Source: a virus
DNA: 20,120 nucleotides
Virus record (IMG/VR): IMGVR_UViG_3300034198_007049
Coordinates: 1 to 20,120 of that record
Direction: 5' to 3' (one strand)
In this document: one piece after another, positions 11,000 through 20,120 of the stretch
How the letters are laid out: every line of letters begins with the position of its first letter
Numbering within the stretch: position 1 is the stretch's first letter
Notes under the pieces: generated by a model
The model's input: the letters and a program-made list of their open reading frames with translations, nothing else
Told to the model about the DNA's origin: nothing
The model's database searches: none
Made by a program: the position numbers and the translations under genes

Positions 11000-11005
11000 A
11001 TTCTA
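11000..11005 (-). promoter_or_regulatory. possible -10 hexamer TAGAAT 6 nt before the gp15-like start
   Basis: Minus-strand TAGAAT, then ACCCCT, then ATG 10993. The first three bases are also the stop codon of the PAPS-reductase-like gene, so the match may be partly forced by that stop. There is no Shine-Dalgarno sequence in the 8-bp gap. Confidence 0.28.
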
Positions 11006-11800
11006 CCGCTTCAAATAGCTGTTATTCGGAGGCTGAGCCCAAATCAGCCTATCGGACAAATTTGACACCGTGGCCCCAAACTTTGGGCAATAGACGTTGT
11101 TGCCGGTCTTTTTGGACATACAGGCATAGCAGCACGAGATGTAGTCTGGGTTATGCGTCTTGTCCTCACGCTCGCGCCATTTGCCATCTACCTTCTCATA
11201 CCGCTCTTGGTGAATTGGGAGGCCATTCTCCTCAATGTATCTCCACACATCCTCATCCGTGAAGTGACGGATGGGAAATGCTGCCGATGGAGCCCCTACG
11301 TTAGTCGCTATGTCTGAATAAAGCCTTACCTCCCCTAGAATCGGATCGCAGTCGGAGCTCTTGTGTCCGTGAAAAACTAGGTCAAATGGGTAGTTGATGC
11401 TTCCGGTTGGCTTCAGGTAGATGTCGGACAAGGCGCAAACCAAGTCTTTGCCGCTGGTGTCTTGGCGCAACCCCGTTGGGAGGTATGTGGTGGATGTGCC
11501 AGTCTGGTAATAGTTTACCACCTCCAGCTCTGAGTCTCCCTCTGCTAATGCCGTAGCCGAAGGCGGGTAGTCTATGATGTGTAGCCCCCAATCTCGCATA
11601 ACGCGATTGGCATAGTCGTACTTGTGGTGCTGGAACGGCTCTCGGTGAAACACCACCTTGAGCTTACGAATCGACATCACCAAATGAAGAACAACGATGC
11701 TGTCCTTCCCGAATGAGCACATAATCGCAGGATTACGTGCATTGGCTAGGCTGGAATGGATCAGCTTTCTGGCCCAGTCCACCTTTTGTTCATAGGTCAC
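11003..11800 (-). CDS. PAPS reductase family PP-loop ATPase
   Basis: A 265-residue protein with the PP-loop signature SFGKDS at residues 29-34, followed by IVVLHLV and a typical Rossmann-like alternation. This is the adenosine-phosphosulfate / phosphoadenosine-phosphosulfate (PAPS) reductase and sulfotransferase-related superfamily, which binds ATP or PAPS. The C-terminal part has a cysteine cluster (Cys223, Cys224, Cys227, Cys238 in ISCCYACM...VYCPK) instead of the usual ECGIH tail of cysH reductases, so it may bind zinc or an iron-sulfur centre and act in a different sulfur or nucleotide reaction. It starts at GTG 11800, just after the 587-residue protein's stop. Sampled lines have lower GC (about 52%) than neighbouring virion genes. 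That, plus its place among ejection-protein genes, suggests an acquired accessory gene. Superfamily is confident; the reaction is unknown. Confidence 0.88.
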   Translation of the reverse strand: MTYEQKVDWARKLIHSSLANARNPAIMCSFGKDSIVVLHLVMSIRKLKVVFHREPFQHHKYDYANRVMRDWGLHIIDYPPSATALAEGDSELEVVNYYQTGTSTTYLPTGLRQDTSGKDLVCALSDIYLKPTGSINYPFDLVFHGHKSSDCDPILGEVRLYSDIATNVGAPSAAFPIRHFTDEDVWRYIEENGLPIHQERYEKVDGKWREREDKTHNPDYISCCYACMSKKTGNNVYCPKFGATVSNLSDRLIWAQPPNNSYLKR

Positions 11801-14265: not shown

Positions 14266-16443
14266 TTAGGAAGCTTGAGAGATGGTTGGGTCGGTGATCA
14301 TCGCCTGCACCTTTACGGCCCTCAGCTTGGGTCGCCCATTGGTAGGGGCCACCGTCATCTGGATGCCATAGCCGCGCTTGTTGCCAATTCTACCACGCAC
14401 GGAGGCGTCTTCGCCTACCGCCAGATTGGAGCCAAGGATAGAGGACAAGAACCCCAGAAAAGTGCTGCTATCCGGATTTTCCACTTCCGAATAAATTGTA
14501 GCATTCGACGATTCCGACGACGACGACTCAATGTGTAGTTCATACGAATTGAACTTCTTTCGGTCCATCGTTCCATAGGAGTATTGGCGAGTGGTAACAC
14601 CGCTTCCGATTTTGTAGATGGCGGCAGGCACACCGGCAAAGAGGGACAGACGATCATTGCCGTCCTCCCGCCCGTCCACCTTGTGAATAGAACCGCTGGG
14701 GCTGATGGTGTAGAGCGAGGCAAACCCGCTGTTTTCCGCAACCACGAAATTGCTGATGCTCCAGCCCGTCTGGCCGGTCATATCCAGCGACTCCCAGCCT
14801 CCGTTCAGGAAGTTGTAGATGAGGATGGCGTTGTTCACCGTGGACGCATCCAGCGGCACCGCAAGGTAGTAGCGGTTGTCGAAGTAGGCAGCTACGGCCT
14901 TGTTGGCGTAGTCCTTGTTGATACGTTGGATGGTGGCCGCAATAGGCTCCGACAACGGTACGCCAGCACCTCTGAGATTGTAGAGGTCGCCAAACGCGGC
15001 TGCGTAAACTCCGTTGTCGGAGAGGAATAGCACCTGATTCCCAATCTGGAGGATGGACCGGCGGGCCACGCACCCCACCTCAGATGTCACCATCTGCACG
15101 GAGGTGTCTGCCACCGACCCGCTGATTCCCCTCACAAGATGGATGGAATTGCGGTTGAAGACCAGAAGGTTGTCCTCAGCAAAGGCCTGAAGCCCAACTA
15201 CATAGTCGGCCACGCCAGCCGTAATACGATACTGGTTCTGGATGCGGTCGTAGGTGTCGCTATCCAGAATGTCGGAGGCGATGATTTCGTCCCTGACATT
15301 CCTGTCGGTGTAAGACCCTGCACCCGGCTCGTACCAGTATGGCACCCACAGACGGCGTTGATGGTAGTAGCCCCATCCCGGCGCGGGCATATGGATGAAG
15401 CCCTTCCCAGAACTGATCTTCTTAGAGACCACGATCCGATCCGAGGCAATGTCCGGAACCTGACCAAGGAACTTGAAGCTGTTGGCCGTGGGCACATCGC
15501 TCACCGTGTACGGGAAGTCGCCCTCCTGAAGCTCGGAGGATGCGCGGTCGATGACGTAAACCGTATTTCCAACAGACAGCCCGTGCGAATTGGCCGTGAT
15601 AGTGACTATGCCGTCCGTGATGGAGGCATTCCCGGCTGCGTCGAAGTAGACGGGTTGAGTGTACACGCCGCTATCCACAGCCGTAAAGGCAGGGCTGCCC
15701 GTCAGGCTTCCGTTCCATTCCAGCGCCGCTTGTCCCTCGCGGAACATAATCACCTTGTCGAAGCATTGCAGAAGCTCGACATCCGCCGAGATGGATACGC
15801 CAGCAGGGTAGGAAATGGTCGTGGACGACCCTCCGCTCGCCGGAGTGGCAATGGCGTTCTGGTTGGTGGCGCGGATGATGTAGTTGGCGTTCTGGCTGGC
15901 CGGGTCGGAGAACAGGCAGGAGCCGTATACGCCAGTCGTTTGCGTAGCCGTCAGTTTGGCCGGGCCAGCCACCCCAGAACTCACCGTGTACGTCTCGCTG
16001 CCGGTGGCCCCGGGGATGGTGAAGGTGAACTGGGTGGTGCTTACCACCGTAATCACCCGGTTACCCGTGGGGTCTATCGTGCCGCTCACCCCGGCAATGT
16101 TCACCAGCGTGTTGGTCACGAAGGCATTCGTAGCCGTATTGACCGTTACGGTGGTGCCGGACCGGCTAGCCGAGGAGATGCTAGCCGTGGCGTACAAATA
16201 CCACACCGGAGGGCTAACCAGCCGGATAGACTCCGTGTTTGCCGTCAGGGTAGGACCAAAGGTTTCCAGCCCCTTGCGGGTCTGCCAAGCCCCTTCGATG
16301 TCCATCCGCCCATTGTAGCTCTCTGCCACCTCGCCAGCCTTGAGCTGGTCAGGGCGCAGGCGGTTGTTCACCTTCGTGAAGCCTACGTCGCCATCGTCAA
16401 CAATGGCCGAGTCGAGAGCGCCGAATCTGGAATAGCGTGCCAT
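14266..16443 (-). CDS. tail nozzle / tubular protein, T7 gp12- or P22 gp10-like beta-propeller
   Basis: A 725-residue beta-rich protein. The start (FTKVNNRLRPDQLKAGEVAESYNGRMDIEG, then WQTRKGLETFG) is the familiar opening of podovirus tail tubular or DNA-stabilisation proteins, where each virion carries six copies closing the tail channel. Residues about 80-155 look like an Ig-like beta sandwich (SSASRSGTTVTVNTATNAFV, FTFTIPGATGSETYTVSSG). The centre holds repeated propeller-blade-like strands, with conserved-looking pieces FNRNSIHLVRGI, GNQVLFLSDNGVYAA and NRYYLAVPLD...ILIYNFLNGGWESLDM. The gene is followed by a fibre-like gene and internal virion proteins, as expected for a short-tailed phage. 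The ATG overlaps the upstream stop (TAATG). Confidence 0.8.
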   Translation of the reverse strand: MARYSRFGALDSAIVDDGDVGFTKVNNRLRPDQLKAGEVAESYNGRMDIEGAWQTRKGLETFGPTLTANTESIRLVSPPVWYLYATASISSASRSGTTVTVNTATNAFVTNTLVNIAGVSGTIDPTGNRVITVVSTTQFTFTIPGATGSETYTVSSGVAGPAKLTATQTTGVYGSCLFSDPASQNANYIIRATNQNAIATPASGGSSTTISYPAGVSISADVELLQCFDKVIMFREGQAALEWNGSLTGSPAFTAVDSGVYTQPVYFDAAGNASITDGIVTITANSHGLSVGNTVYVIDRASSELQEGDFPYTVSDVPTANSFKFLGQVPDIASDRIVVSKKISSGKGFIHMPAPGWGYYHQRRLWVPYWYEPGAGSYTDRNVRDEIIASDILDSDTYDRIQNQYRITAGVADYVVGLQAFAEDNLLVFNRNSIHLVRGISGSVADTSVQMVTSEVGCVARRSILQIGNQVLFLSDNGVYAAAFGDLYNLRGAGVPLSEPIAATIQRINKDYANKAVAAYFDNRYYLAVPLDASTVNNAILIYNFLNGGWESLDMTGQTGWSISNFVVAENSGFASLYTISPSGSIHKVDGREDGNDRLSLFAGVPAAIYKIGSGVTTRQYSYGTMDRKKFNSYELHIESSSSESSNATIYSEVENPDSSTFLGFLSSILGSNLAVGEDASVRGRIGNKRGYGIQMTVAPTNGRPKLRAVKVQAMITDPTISQAS

Positions 16444-17165
16444 TATTGATAGAGGTAACGAACAACCACAACACCCGCAGCACCCGCGTAGTTTTGGCCG
16501 GTATCGGTGTTGCAGGAGCCGCCAGCACCATTGCTGCCTACGCCAGACGAAATCTCGTCGACATCGCCGCCGCCACCATAGCTGGCGTTGAAGATCGTGC
16601 TGGCATACGCCGCTCCGCCAACCATCCCGCTAGCAGCTCCCCCTGCACCGCCACCGCCTTGAACGCCACCAGCATTGCCGTAGCCGCCAGAAGAAGACGT
16701 AGGCTGAAGAGCGGAGCCGCCAGCGGTCAAACCGCCGCCACCGCAACCGCCGGAATACCCAACTCCAGACTCATTGCCGCGCCCACCGCCAATGGCAGTA
16801 CGGCCATTGAACACGCTGTCCCCGCCATTAGTGCTCACGGCCCCTCCTGCACCAATAGTGACGGCATAAGAACCCGCAGCAATGGTATCGCCGCTGCGCT
16901 CTACAACACCACCGCCACCGCCAGCAGATGGGCTGGCAGACGGTCCCGGTCCGCCACCGCCACCCACCACAATGTAGTCAATCGTCCTACCCGAAGGCAC
17001 CGAGGCTACCGAAAACGTCCCCGAAGACGTAAATGTGTGGTATTTGTAATTCCCACTAGTGGTGATCGTCCCGCCCGTGGCTGAGATGAACCCAGCCGCC
17101 GTCCCCCGACGGAAGGCCCCAAACGCCCGCAAAGAGGCAGCACCAACTGTGGACAGGACAGGCAT
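16443..17165 (-). CDS. glycine-rich tail protein / adhesin
   Basis: A 240-residue protein with a glycine-rich domain. GNYKYHTFTSSGTFSV, then IDYIVVGGGGGPG, is the standard entry to the phage Gly-rich domain (strand, T-F-x-x-S-G-T-F, V-V-G-G-G-G). A long poly-glycine region follows (GGGGGVVERSG, IGAGGAVSTNGGDS, GGCGGGGLTAGG, GGVQGGGGAGGAASG), and the protein closes with GAAGVVVVRYLY. Such domains can pack as polyglycine-II bundles, as in the gp38 adhesins of T-even-like phages, so receptor recognition is a reasonable inference. It begins with MPVLS like the fibre-like protein. It is the first gene of the tail cluster. A TAGGAT hexamer lies 6 nt before the ATG. Confidence 0.75.
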   Translation of the reverse strand: MPVLSTVGAASLRAFGAFRRGTAAGFISATGGTITTSGNYKYHTFTSSGTFSVASVPSGRTIDYIVVGGGGGPGPSASPSAGGGGGVVERSGDTIAAGSYAVTIGAGGAVSTNGGDSVFNGRTAIGGGRGNESGVGYSGGCGGGGLTAGGSALQPTSSSGGYGNAGGVQGGGGAGGAASGMVGGAAYASTIFNASYGGGGDVDEISSGVGSNGAGGSCNTDTGQNYAGAAGVVVVRYLYQ

Positions 17166-17920: not shown

Positions 17921-17933
17921 CCTATCCTACCAC
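17921..17933 (-). repeat. 13-nt direct repeat, copy 2 (GTGGTAGGATAGG)
   Basis: Identical to 17169-17181, ending 4 nt before ATG 17916. Here the TAG at 17927-17929 is also the stop codon of the lipoprotein gene. TAGGAT covers 17924-17929. Confidence 0.5.
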
Positions 17934-18130
17934 GACTTTTTCTCCGCTTCTGCCAAAGCGTGAAGGACTTCGGAGGTGAAGTTGGGGGCAAACTGAGCCG
18001 CCGCCTTAAACTCGGGGTGCTTCAGGAACCTGTCCACCTGCCCCGTCGTGTAGCACCCGGAGAGGGCAAGAAGGGCTAGGGCACACAGAAGGCCCTTTGC
18101 GGGCCTCTGTAATGGCTTTATCGATGGCAT
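17927..18130 (-). CDS. lipoprotein, probable o-spanin (Rz1-like)
   Basis: A 67-residue protein with a bacterial lipoprotein signal: basic start (MPSIKPLQRPAKG), hydrophobic core (LLCALALLA) and lipobox LSGC with the lipidated Cys at residue 26. The mature part is only 42 residues and mostly helical (VDRFLKHPEFKAAAQF, SEVLHALAEAEKK). The gene starts inside the preceding gene in another frame (125-nt overlap), the architecture characteristic of Rz/Rz1, in which an outer-membrane lipoprotein joins an inner-membrane coiled-coil protein to fuse the membranes at lysis. Unlike lambda Rz1 it is not proline-rich. No good ribosome binding site is seen before ATG 18130. Confidence 0.7.
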   Translation of the reverse strand: MPSIKPLQRPAKGLLCALALLALSGCYTTGQVDRFLKHPEFKAAAQFAPNFTSEVLHALAEAEKKSW

Positions 18131-18233
18131 TGTGGGTTTGGGCTACCCTGATACGCTCCACCTCGGAAAGTAGCCTAGAAACGAAAGGAATGGCCTTTCC
18201 TAGGGCTACGATGAGGGAGGCTAGCTCAATCAC
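18006..18233 (-). CDS. possible i-spanin (Rz-like), overlapping the lipoprotein gene
   Basis: A 75-residue protein from GTG 18233, which overlaps the stop of the upstream gene (GTGA). Residues 2-22 (IELASLIVALGKAIPFVSRLL) form a hydrophobic or amphipathic helix that could anchor in the inner membrane, followed by a charged helix (SEVERIRVAQTHNAIDKAITEAR). The last 30 residues (PSVCPSPSCPLRVLHDG...) look like the shadow of the lipoprotein frame. It is shorter than typical Rz proteins and the membrane segment is weak, so the i-spanin call rests mainly on the nested arrangement. It could instead be a small unrelated coupling peptide. Confidence 0.5.
   Translation of the reverse strand: MIELASLIVALGKAIPFVSRLLSEVERIRVAQTHNAIDKAITEARKGPSVCPSPSCPLRVLHDGAGGQVPEAPRV
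18085..18110 (-). other. long stem-loop inside the overlapping lysis-like genes
   Basis: ACAGAAGGCCC (18085-18095) pairs with GGGCCTCTGT (18101-18110) around a TTTGC loop, giving a 10-bp stem with one bulged base. It lies at codons 7-15 of the lipoprotein gene, within the overlapping frame. There is no T run, so a terminator is unlikely; it could tune translation of the lipoprotein. Confidence 0.45.
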
Positions 18234-18448
18234 GTAAGATAGGGGTCGGGAGCGAGGATCACGGCAGGGTCGAGGCCAAGCTGCTGGCAAATAGCGATGG
18301 CCGTGGGATTGTTATTCCAGAACCAAGCGTAGTTGGTCCAGAGGAATTGCTGCTCGGGGGGAAGCCCAGCAATCACGGTCATCAGGTCAGCCACCTTCCC
18401 AGCGTCATTTACGCGACTGACAATCGTGTCCTTGCTAACGCGATAGGG
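18230..18448 (-). repeat. duplicated 219-bp coding segment, copy 2
   Basis: Encodes the shared C-terminal 72 residues plus stop. The other copy is 19630-19848. The two are the same length with no indels, and DNA similarity is obvious by eye, for example TTCCAGAACCA around the FWN codons. Confidence 0.75.
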
Positions 18449-18586
18449 GGCGATGTATTCGGTCGGAGACCAGCCGGACGCGGACAAGCTGTTCCATTCC
18501 TCGTTTGAGATCGCCTCCCATCCAGCTAAATCAACTGGATCAACGGCGAACGTGTACTGATTGGTGCTGCGATTGATCTGTGGCAT
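18230..18586 (-). CDS. small tail-associated protein, copy 2 of duplicated domain
   Basis: A 118-residue protein. Residues 47-118 are a paralogue of residues 61-132 of the protein at 19630-20028: 52 of 72 positions are identical by my count and there are no gaps. Shared blocks are PYRVSKDTIVSRV, LPxxxxxLWxNxAWFWNxNP and LGLDPAVILAPDPYL. The N-terminal 46 residues are unrelated and may give each copy its own partner. The domain is probably all-helical, and its layout recalls small helper proteins encoded beside phage tail-fibre genes. It follows directly after the poly-glycine adhesin gene. Function as a fibre or adhesin assembly helper is an inference. Confidence 0.72.
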   Translation of the reverse strand: MPQINRSTNQYTFAVDPVDLAGWEAISNEEWNSLSASGWSPTEYIAPYRVSKDTIVSRVNDAGKVADLMTVIAGLPPEQQFLWTNYAWFWNNNPTAIAICQQLGLDPAVILAPDPYLT

Positions 18587-18589
18587 AGC

Positions 18590-19633
18590 TTAGAAGTAGG
18601 TGATGATTTGAACGATGCCGTTGCCGCCTGCGCCGCCGTCGCCTCCCTTGTTTGTTCCGCCACCGCCTCCGCCGCCACCACCGCCGCCAAGGCCACCAGC
18701 GCCACCAGCGCCACCAGTTCCGCCCGTTCCAGCGCCACCACCACCGCCACCGCCACCGGAGCGCCCGGTGACAAGGTAGCTATCGCCAGCGGTTCCGGCA
18801 GAACCCGTGGTGCCATTTGCACCAGCGGCTGCGCCAGAGCCAGAAGCTCGAAAACGCCCAGAAGGACCACCGTTTCCGCCGCCCGTCTGAGCAGTATTGC
18901 CGCTAGTAACGCCTCGTCCCGGACCACCGCCACCACCGCCGTGACGAGACCCGCCGCCTTCAAACGGTGTTCCAGTATTGCCAGACACGCTACCTGCGCC
19001 ACCGCCACCGCCCCATTCCGCCTGCGCTCCATTGGTCGCAGAGTCTCCATTTCCACCCATTCCACCTACAGCGGTAATTCCGCTGCCTTGGTTTGGGAGG
19101 CCTCCCGTAACGCTTCCGCCGCCAGAGTTTGCAACTCGGGACGCGCCTGCGCCAGCCGTTCCGCCACCAGCACCGCCAGCGTTTGCATTTGAAACGCGCC
19201 CATTGCTTCCAGCGCCGCCGCCGCCTGCAAGTGCAACAATTCCGGTTGTTGGCGGGTTGGTGTTGTTGTCCGCAACCGTACTGTTGCCACCTCCGCTTCC
19301 AATCCAGCCATTGTCGTTGGTTTGACCTAAGCCCCCGCTACCACCGGCTCCCACGACGCAATAGAGCGAGGCAGGAAGCGCATCAGCAGCGCAAAGCTGC
19401 TCTACGCGAGCGCCACCACCACCACCCCCTCCGGGATTGCGCTCCGAGCCAGCAGCGCCACCAGCAGCACCACCACCACCACCGCCACCACCCATTGCAA
19501 TGATGAGTACGGCTTTGGCCCCAGAAGGCTTGCTCCACGTATGCACCGTGCCAGTAGTCGTGTAGGTGTCCACCTGAGCGTTGCTGCCTGCTGGACCAAC
19601 TAAGCCAGCGGGGACGATTGAGGATAAGTTCAT
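18590..19633 (-). CDS. poly-glycine adhesin-like tail protein
   Basis: A 347-residue protein. After a short head (MNLSSIVPAGLVGPAGSNAQ) comes the Gly-rich-domain entry TYTTTGTVHTWSKPSGAKAV and VLIIAMGG, then about 270 residues dominated by glycine runs broken by Ala, Ser, Asn and Thr, ending GGAGGNGIVQIITYF. This matches the phage Gly-rich domain seen in tail tips and gp38-type adhesins, which can fold as stacked polyglycine-II helices and present variable loops to host receptors. The DNA is highly repetitive (GCC/ACC-rich). The ATG overlaps the stop of the upstream paralogue, and the downstream paralogue follows 3 bases after its stop, so the three genes look like one cassette. Receptor binding is inferred from family. 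Confidence 0.78.
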   Translation of the reverse strand: MNLSSIVPAGLVGPAGSNAQVDTYTTTGTVHTWSKPSGAKAVLIIAMGGGGGGGGAAGGAAGSERNPGGGGGGGARVEQLCAADALPASLYCVVGAGGSGGLGQTNDNGWIGSGGGNSTVADNNTNPPTTGIVALAGGGGAGSNGRVSNANAGGAGGGTAGAGASRVANSGGGSVTGGLPNQGSGITAVGGMGGNGDSATNGAQAEWGGGGGAGSVSGNTGTPFEGGGSRHGGGGGGPGRGVTSGNTAQTGGGNGGPSGRFRASGSGAAAGANGTTGSAGTAGDSYLVTGRSGGGGGGGGAGTGGTGGAGGAGGLGGGGGGGGGGGTNKGGDGGAGGNGIVQIITYF

Positions 19634-19848
19634 TGCAGGTAAGGATCAGGAGCCAGAATAACCGCAGGGTCTAGACCGAGATGCTGGCACATCGCGATGA
19701 TCGTGGGGTTGGTGTTCCAGAACCACGCGAAGTTGTTCCAGAGATAAGCCTCATCCTCTGGCAGGCCGTTGGTCAGGGTGATGAGGTCGTTCAGCTTCCC
19801 AGCAGCGAGCACTCGGCTCACAATGGTGTCTTTAGACACGCGGTAGGG
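19630..19848 (-). repeat. duplicated 219-bp coding segment, copy 1
   Basis: Partner of 18230-18448; encodes the C-terminal 72 residues plus stop of the 132-residue protein. Confidence 0.75.
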
Positions 19849-20028
19849 TTGCGGGGGCGGAATGGGCTTCACCACCCACGCGCAGTTCTCCCAGACCGGC
19901 GCTTGCTCGGTGGCGGGGTCGTAGGACGGCGGCGGCGTCTCCACCCACCCCTTGCGCTTTAGGTTGGCAATGACCTGTGGGTCGGTCTCCGTGCGAAGCT
20001 GGCAGTCGAGAGTTAGGTAAGTGGGCAT
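19630..20028 (-). CDS. small tail-associated protein, copy 1 of duplicated domain
   Basis: A 132-residue protein, the first late gene in the window. The N-terminal 60 residues (TYLTLDCQLRTETDPQVI, NLKRKGW, a proline-rich stretch ending WVVKPIPPPQ) differ from the paralogue at 18230-18586, whereas residues 61-132 are 72% identical to it. An N-terminus of the type x-L-x-x-K-G-W followed by proline spacers is often seen in small proteins encoded beside tail fibres. It overlaps the adhesin start (ATGA). A chaperone or connector role for the glycine-rich protein is plausible but unproved. No Shine-Dalgarno sequence lies before its ATG. Confidence 0.72.
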   Translation of the reverse strand: MPTYLTLDCQLRTETDPQVIANLKRKGWVETPPPSYDPATEQAPVWENCAWVVKPIPPPQPYRVSKDTIVSRVLAAGKLNDLITLTNGLPEDEAYLWNNFAWFWNTNPTIIAMCQHLGLDPAVILAPDPYLQ

Positions 20029-20046
20029 AGGTCAGGAGCAGGCGAT

Positions 20047-20076
20047 TTTATACGAGAACCCGGCAGCGTGCGTCAC
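20047..20076 (-). promoter_or_regulatory. candidate sigma70-type late promoter
   Basis: Minus-strand GTGACG (20071-20076; 4 of 6 matches to TTGACA), an 18-bp spacer, then TATAAA (20047-20052; 5 of 6 matches to TATAAT), followed by AT. The start point would lie about 10-15 nt before ATG 20028. It is the best promoter-like sequence in the window and sits in the only noncoding stretch (20029-20120) upstream of the late operon. Confidence 0.5.
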
Positions 20077-20120
20077 TCGTTTCCGCAACGGATCACTCAA
20101 TGGAGCTTGATTAAAAACAG

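Follow-up and report, generated by a model that had tools for sequence, protein, structure and literature searches.

Why would a phage place two small genes, alike in the C-terminal part of their products and unrelated in the N-terminal part, on either side of a glycine-rich adhesin gene? This arrangement lies on the minus strand of the window (the whole stretch of DNA analysed, a 20,120-bp virus record), which carries both small genes, here called partners A and B, and the glycine-rich reading frame. A first-pass annotation described it as helper–adhesin–helper, the outcome either of tandem duplication of a helper or of a module swap between homologous flanks. Its claim of a shared 72-residue C-terminal domain and unrelated N-termini is confirmed, and so are the gene positions: as a single comparison, BLASTP aligns residues 47–117 of partner A with 61–131 of partner B at 52 of 71 identities, 0 gaps and E=6e-38 (52 of 72 when the final T/Q column is counted), and produces no alignment of the N-termini. 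The three-gene layout gives way to a different one, because the window extends 92 bp past partner B, into the coding end of a further adhesin-like gene (...LRKRVTHAAGFSYKIACS*), making two adhesin–partner cassettes. The features are as follows.

20032..20120, minus strand: C-terminal tail of adhesin 1, 28 residues readable to the stop (translation VFNQAPLSDPLRKRVTHAAGFSYKIACS*), the remainder lying beyond the window end
19630..20028, minus strand: partner B, 132 aa, with N-domain type B (residues 1–60) and C-domain subtype I (residues 61–132)
19633..19848, minus strand: C-domain of partner B, 72 residues, from the protein alignment
18590..19633, minus strand: Gly-rich adhesin 2, 347 aa, 37% Gly, C-terminal IVQIITYF
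18230..18586, minus strand: partner A, 118 aa, with N-domain type A (residues 1–46) and C-domain subtype II (residues 47–118)
18233..18448, minus strand: C-domain of partner A, 72 residues, from the protein alignment
18230..18281, minus strand: putative cassette joint, the last ~52 nt of partner A, placed by 94% identity to the L096 partner 3′ end and by continuous downstream genes
18006..18233, minus strand: 75-aa gene with a GTG start, kept as neighbour in single-cassette relatives (L096 and L002 alignments)

The gene order is adhesin 1–partner B, then Gly-rich adhesin 2–partner A, then the 75-aa gene with lipoprotein-like and holin-like genes. At one end of the Gly-rich cassette the ATG of adhesin 2 overlaps the partner B stop codon (ATGA), and at the other the GTG of the 75-aa gene overlaps that of partner A (GTGA). 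The gene for a 67-aa protein with a lipobox-like LSGC (17927–18130, minus strand) overlaps, in a different reading frame, the end of the 75-aa gene; its product is spanin-like by position, with a weak match to phrog_456 (E=0.026). Elsewhere the window encodes a head-closure/tail-tubular-like protein of 725 aa and a DnaB-like helicase and carries small genes of a lysis-like kind, a gene content suggesting a tailed, podophage-like virus. Among named phages, the closest match found for the 725-aa protein was Phage C75C1 (37% identity). Amid the structural gene block, a gene at 11003–11800 (minus strand) matches phage phosphoadenosine phosphosulfate reductases (E about 1e-9) and is possibly an auxiliary metabolic gene.

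Gly-rich adhesin 2 matches phrog_863 (E=1.6e-5) and, below the curated cut-off of 24.3 bits, PF21722 Gly_rich_2 (E=1.7e-4, 22.1 bits), a cut-off that its homologue in L031 exceeds at 25.7 bits. A second Gly-rich protein of the window (16443–17165, minus strand; 240 aa; PF21722 E=1.8e-10; C-terminal VVVRYLYQ) is encoded at a conserved place ahead of the gene for the 725-aa head-closure-like protein with no partner domain adjoining; Gly-rich proteins here are therefore not always accompanied by a partner. The readable tail of adhesin 1 is the conserved tail SLRKR.E...YSFKIACS found 5′ of type-B partners in relatives, in most of which a protein of this family (~240 aa) is encoded directly upstream of the type-B partner. 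The family is hypervariable, with a mean pairwise identity of 31% as against 81% for its partner, and its N- and C-terminal tails are conserved; position, hypervariability and conserved ends are the reasons for calling it adhesin-like. As a LamG lectin it is unproven: Laminin_G_3 reaches only E=0.3, in 2 of 14 members, and comparison of the adhesin-1 profile with a true LamG family profile gives a probability of 5%.

Searches with each protein and with a C-domain profile found the domain encoded in about 50 independent viral contigs. Prokaryote genomes yielded one match, L096, a short contig assigned to an Oxalobacteraceae MAG, which hints only weakly at a host from that family; named phages yielded a single weak one (E=0.3). 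Rescanning with a more diverse profile added only one contig (L147), and the set is therefore near saturation at this sensitivity. The expectation that the domain sits beside Gly-rich or fibre genes was borne out wherever relatives are readable, an adhesin or fibre gene lying directly 5′ of it, except in one lineage, the near-identical L004 and L006. There the adhesin-1 gene has been reduced to about its last seven codons, which remain 5′ of an intact type-B partner (L004 4467–4514 and the same region of L006); read from these remnants, the exception reflects deletion of the adhesin rather than another pairing. The 72-residue domain can serve as a genomic marker for a receptor-binding gene directly upstream in phages that are uncultured and for the most part unannotated.

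The N-terminal sequences of the partners fall into types A, B and C, with a fourth in one further locus, and the type follows the gene upstream. Counting distinct proteins whose upstream gene is readable, type A comes after a Gly-rich protein or Gly-rich C-terminus in 9 of 9 cases, type B after the adhesin-1 family in 27 of 28 (L004/L006 being the sole exception) and type C after a LamG lectin (Laminin_G_3, PF13385, E=1.8e-22) in 4 of 4. The Gly-rich proteins that precede type A end in a short strand rich in I/V/T with an aromatic F (such as IIITHF, IFITYF, QIITYF), and the fourth type, in L147, follows a 569-aa fibre with yet another C-terminus. Nature has thereby set up an experiment: one conserved domain is joined to four or more N-domains, of which the main three each go with an adhesin class of their own. 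This makes it testable whether a small N-domain alone sets which adhesin a fibre chaperone serves.

The two C-domain subtypes, in turn, combine with all three main N-types (I/II: type B, 13/17; type A, 1/8; type C, 2/2). Between genes with different N-types and the same C subtype, the C-domain DNA is 82–87% identical and the preceding 100 nt are 27–33% identical. Because the N-type follows the adhesin and identity jumps at the N/C boundary, adhesin and N-domain move as a block while the C-domain recombines separately; such swappable front halves show how phages exchange receptor-binding parts.

We consider it likely that the locus holds two tandem receptor-binding cassettes, in each of which the partner is a two-domain tail-fibre assembly protein for the adhesin that precedes it. 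By analogy with the systems discussed below, the partner is probably a folding chaperone. First, its interchangeable N-domain would recognise the C-terminal end of the cognate adhesin. Second, the conserved helical C-domain would carry out a task common to all partners, most likely oligomerisation (trimerisation), and the oligomer could register the adhesin chains during folding. Finally, cassettes could be joined, gained or lost at the 3′ end of the C-domain by homologous recombination, this end being the proposed joining site because it belongs to the conserved domain, whereas N-domain and adhesin differ between cassettes.

Single-cassette relatives bear on the last of these steps. Four of them (L096, L002, L010 and L004) carry one type-B partner and then the DNA that in the window follows partner A, with the next 60 nt past the partner 95–98% identical to the window and the 1.4 kb between the window repeats absent. 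Within the L096 C-domain, the first 167 nt are 88% identical to window partner B and 63% to A, and the last 52 nt are 94% identical to A and 69% to B. Window partner B has an unusual 3′ end, for which reason other subtype-I genes are also nearer to A than to B there; this partly confounds the joint, and the breakpoint test is also significant in controls with unrelated downstream DNA (L007, L023 and L025). The breakpoint test alone is therefore not our basis for the joint; we rely on identity at the 3′ end and downstream, taken together with the lack of the intervening segment, and infer that the joint lies within the final ~50 bp of the partner gene. The simplest account of these alignments would have the inserted segment run from inside the 3′ end of partner B to inside that of partner A. 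Such an insertion is consistent with crossovers in the conserved gene end, and the reverse event, a loss, is just as possible. The module-swap idea accordingly stands in modified form: the exchanged block is adhesin plus N-domain, and the comparisons support a role for the C-domain as homologous 3′ flank of an exchangeable cassette; two helpers flanking one adhesin are not part of it.

How often do such cassettes occur in pairs? Among 49 linked records searched whole, 46 have one intact C-domain copy and G022 carries two; the copy in G027 is frameshifted, and in G028 no copy reaches the threshold. These counts are minima, as records may be incomplete, and 12 of the single-copy records exceed 35 kb. 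Each of the two copies in G022 comes after its own fibre and adhesin genes. Pairs are thus confined to the window and G022 among about 50 contigs, and L004/L006 lost an adhesin while keeping its partner, as would be expected if the two-copy layout were a transient by-product of phage mosaicism whose second cassette has no function. We regard this as possible, if unlikely: both window partners and the Gly-rich reading frame are intact, as is what can be seen of adhesin 1, and 4-nt start/stop overlaps are found at both ends of the Gly-rich cassette. On another reading, the C-domain might be a universal adaptor into which any adhesin plugs through a recognition domain of ~45–60 residues fused upstream, and its 3′ end might be preserved as a site for recombination; phages of this group would then collect and lose whole cassettes and could show two receptor-binding proteins simultaneously. 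We offer this last, more sweeping generalisation as a speculation that is rather unlikely to hold in full.

Proteins of known or proposed function in the same genomic slot offer the closest guide to what the partners do. In Pam3, the Tfa-type chaperone gp25 is encoded directly 3′ of the Gly-rich fibre gp24 (PMC9608196, PDB 7YPX); a linker joins its two domains, a non-conserved N-terminal β domain that binds the fibre end and a conserved helical C-terminal domain that trimerises (PMC9608196). The position of the partner genes 3′ of a Gly-rich gene and their two-domain layout resemble gp24–gp25: AF2 models of partner A (mean pLDDT 92) and partner B (mean pLDDT 83) both predict a small β/α N-domain, a linker and a helical C-domain. 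Unlike gp25, however, the partners show no detectable sequence similarity to this system, with hhalign giving a probability of about 1% against gp25 for either profile and direct comparison with gp24 giving no match. Moreover, Pam3 is a myocyanophage with one pair, whereas the present family serves adhesins with four or more unrelated ends, and two of its cassettes stand in tandem.

Tfa of Mu (PDB 5YVQ), lambda Tfa and T4 gp38 likewise come after the fibre gene, are modular in their N- and C-terminal parts and pair with a cognate fibre (PMC9608196). The partners share with them their size range, their place directly 3′ of a fibre or adhesin gene (apart from L004/L006, where the adhesin is deleted) and their modular build, a variable fibre-specific N-domain followed by a conserved helical C-domain. 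They differ in that partners of the window and its relatives match no Tfa family at E≤1 in Pfam or PHROG profiles and in that their N-domains are much smaller than that of TfaMu; their function is proposed by analogy. Alteromonas phage V22 gp27 and A5 gp9 offer a further parallel, as intermolecular chaperones encoded directly downstream of the receptor-binding fibre in a fibre–chaperone module passed horizontally among phages (PMC7289586, PMC10579305). When found, V22 gp27 had no similarity to known chaperones, and homologues of these two proteins have a C-terminal DUF4376 (PMC7289586), which was not found in the partners. By sequence, then, the partners do not belong to the Tfa or Pam3 gp25 families; they probably work like them.

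These comparisons also bear on whether the partners could instead be structural connectors, kept in the virion, that tie a separate adhesin to the shaft with the C-domain docked to the latter. A conserved C-domain with an adhesin-specific N-domain would suit such a docking adaptor, the adhesin of type-B loci is a separate polypeptide encoded after the shaft gene, and TfaMu stays in virions (PMC9608196). In L023, L029 and L095, however, the Gly-rich region is the C-terminal part of a shaft protein of 707–1901 aa and thus already covalently attached, leaving a connector unneeded, and a type-A partner still lies directly 3′. We therefore judge the connector improbable and favour assembly proteins.

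The other origin first suggested, in which a single helper gene was simply duplicated in tandem to either side of an adhesin, is very improbable. Two homologous copies do lie ~1.4 kb apart on one strand, but they differ in C-domain subtype, N-domain and paired adhesin, each being tied to its own upstream gene, and the two 219-nt C-domain segments are 69% identical in DNA, with a longest common run of 11 nt, so the duplication is not a recent one. Each copy has nearer relatives in other phages than its counterpart in the window, and the two are old paralogues or were acquired independently.

Neither single proteins nor family profiles found an annotated homologue by sequence in Pfam, PHROGs or PDB, and 22 plus 8 family members searched against PHROGs gave a best E of 0.058, to a family of unknown function. 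Matches to PDB 4v3r and 4v3q (YIII_M..AII) at 1e-4 to 1e-6 were rejected: they cover only ~30 residues, with no stretch passing alone, and disappear with a full-length profile. The partners thus appear, from their sequences, to form a new family undescribed in the libraries searched, one that is now linked to receptor-binding modules.

Fold comparisons point to the same genomic slot in other phages. Foldseek searches of viral models returned mostly uncharacterised small phage proteins (TM 0.4–0.5 for phage-protein matches); partner B matched Caulobacter phage Percy gene 46 (E 6e-4) and Rhizobium phage P106B gene 39 (E 5e-3), genes equated with the Foldseek matches by organism, name and length. 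Percy gene 46 lies directly 3′ of the tail fibre and P106B gene 39, annotated 'tail fiber assembly-like', directly 3′ of a tail-collar protein, both on the lysis side, and the N-terminus of the latter matches Tfa PHROGs (E 6e-12) while its C-terminus matches other families of unknown function. The window partners share with these phrog_6034-related genes the slot between a fibre or collar gene and lysis-side genes; unlike them in sequence, they show no significant similarity to either. The structures of TfaMu and Pam3 gp25 were not among the Foldseek/VIA matches, comparisons that barely covered the N-domain, which is modelled as small β strands and a helix. The best PDB fold matches of the C-domain are weak XRE/Cro-like ones (VIA Z up to 4.9 over 59–73 residues), which would speak for helix-turn-helix regulators of alternative adhesin expression. 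That reading is hardly credible: Z values below 5 are common background, Pfam gives no helix-turn-helix match, both proteins are acidic (pI 4.1 and 4.6; C-domains 4.5–4.6), and the N-domain tracks adhesin class, for which a regulator has no need.

Several relatives carry further features around the partner gene. One 47.6-kb contig holds two fibre–adhesin–partner cassettes (L022 5267–6393 and L046 1119–2245) in which the adhesin-1 starts and ends are almost identical and the downstream genes differ. In L027 and L094, a frameshift breaks the partner gene, and the adhesin upstream also looks degraded. A 128-aa Ig-like family (I-set, Hoc-like) is encoded directly 3′ of the partner in L009 (6401–6787) and also in L001, L015, L034 and L042. 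Finally, L088 (1824–6860) has three consecutive genes with Gly-rich C-termini (LITFF, IVTYF and IFITYF) and a single partner, after the last, so that one partner may serve several adhesins.
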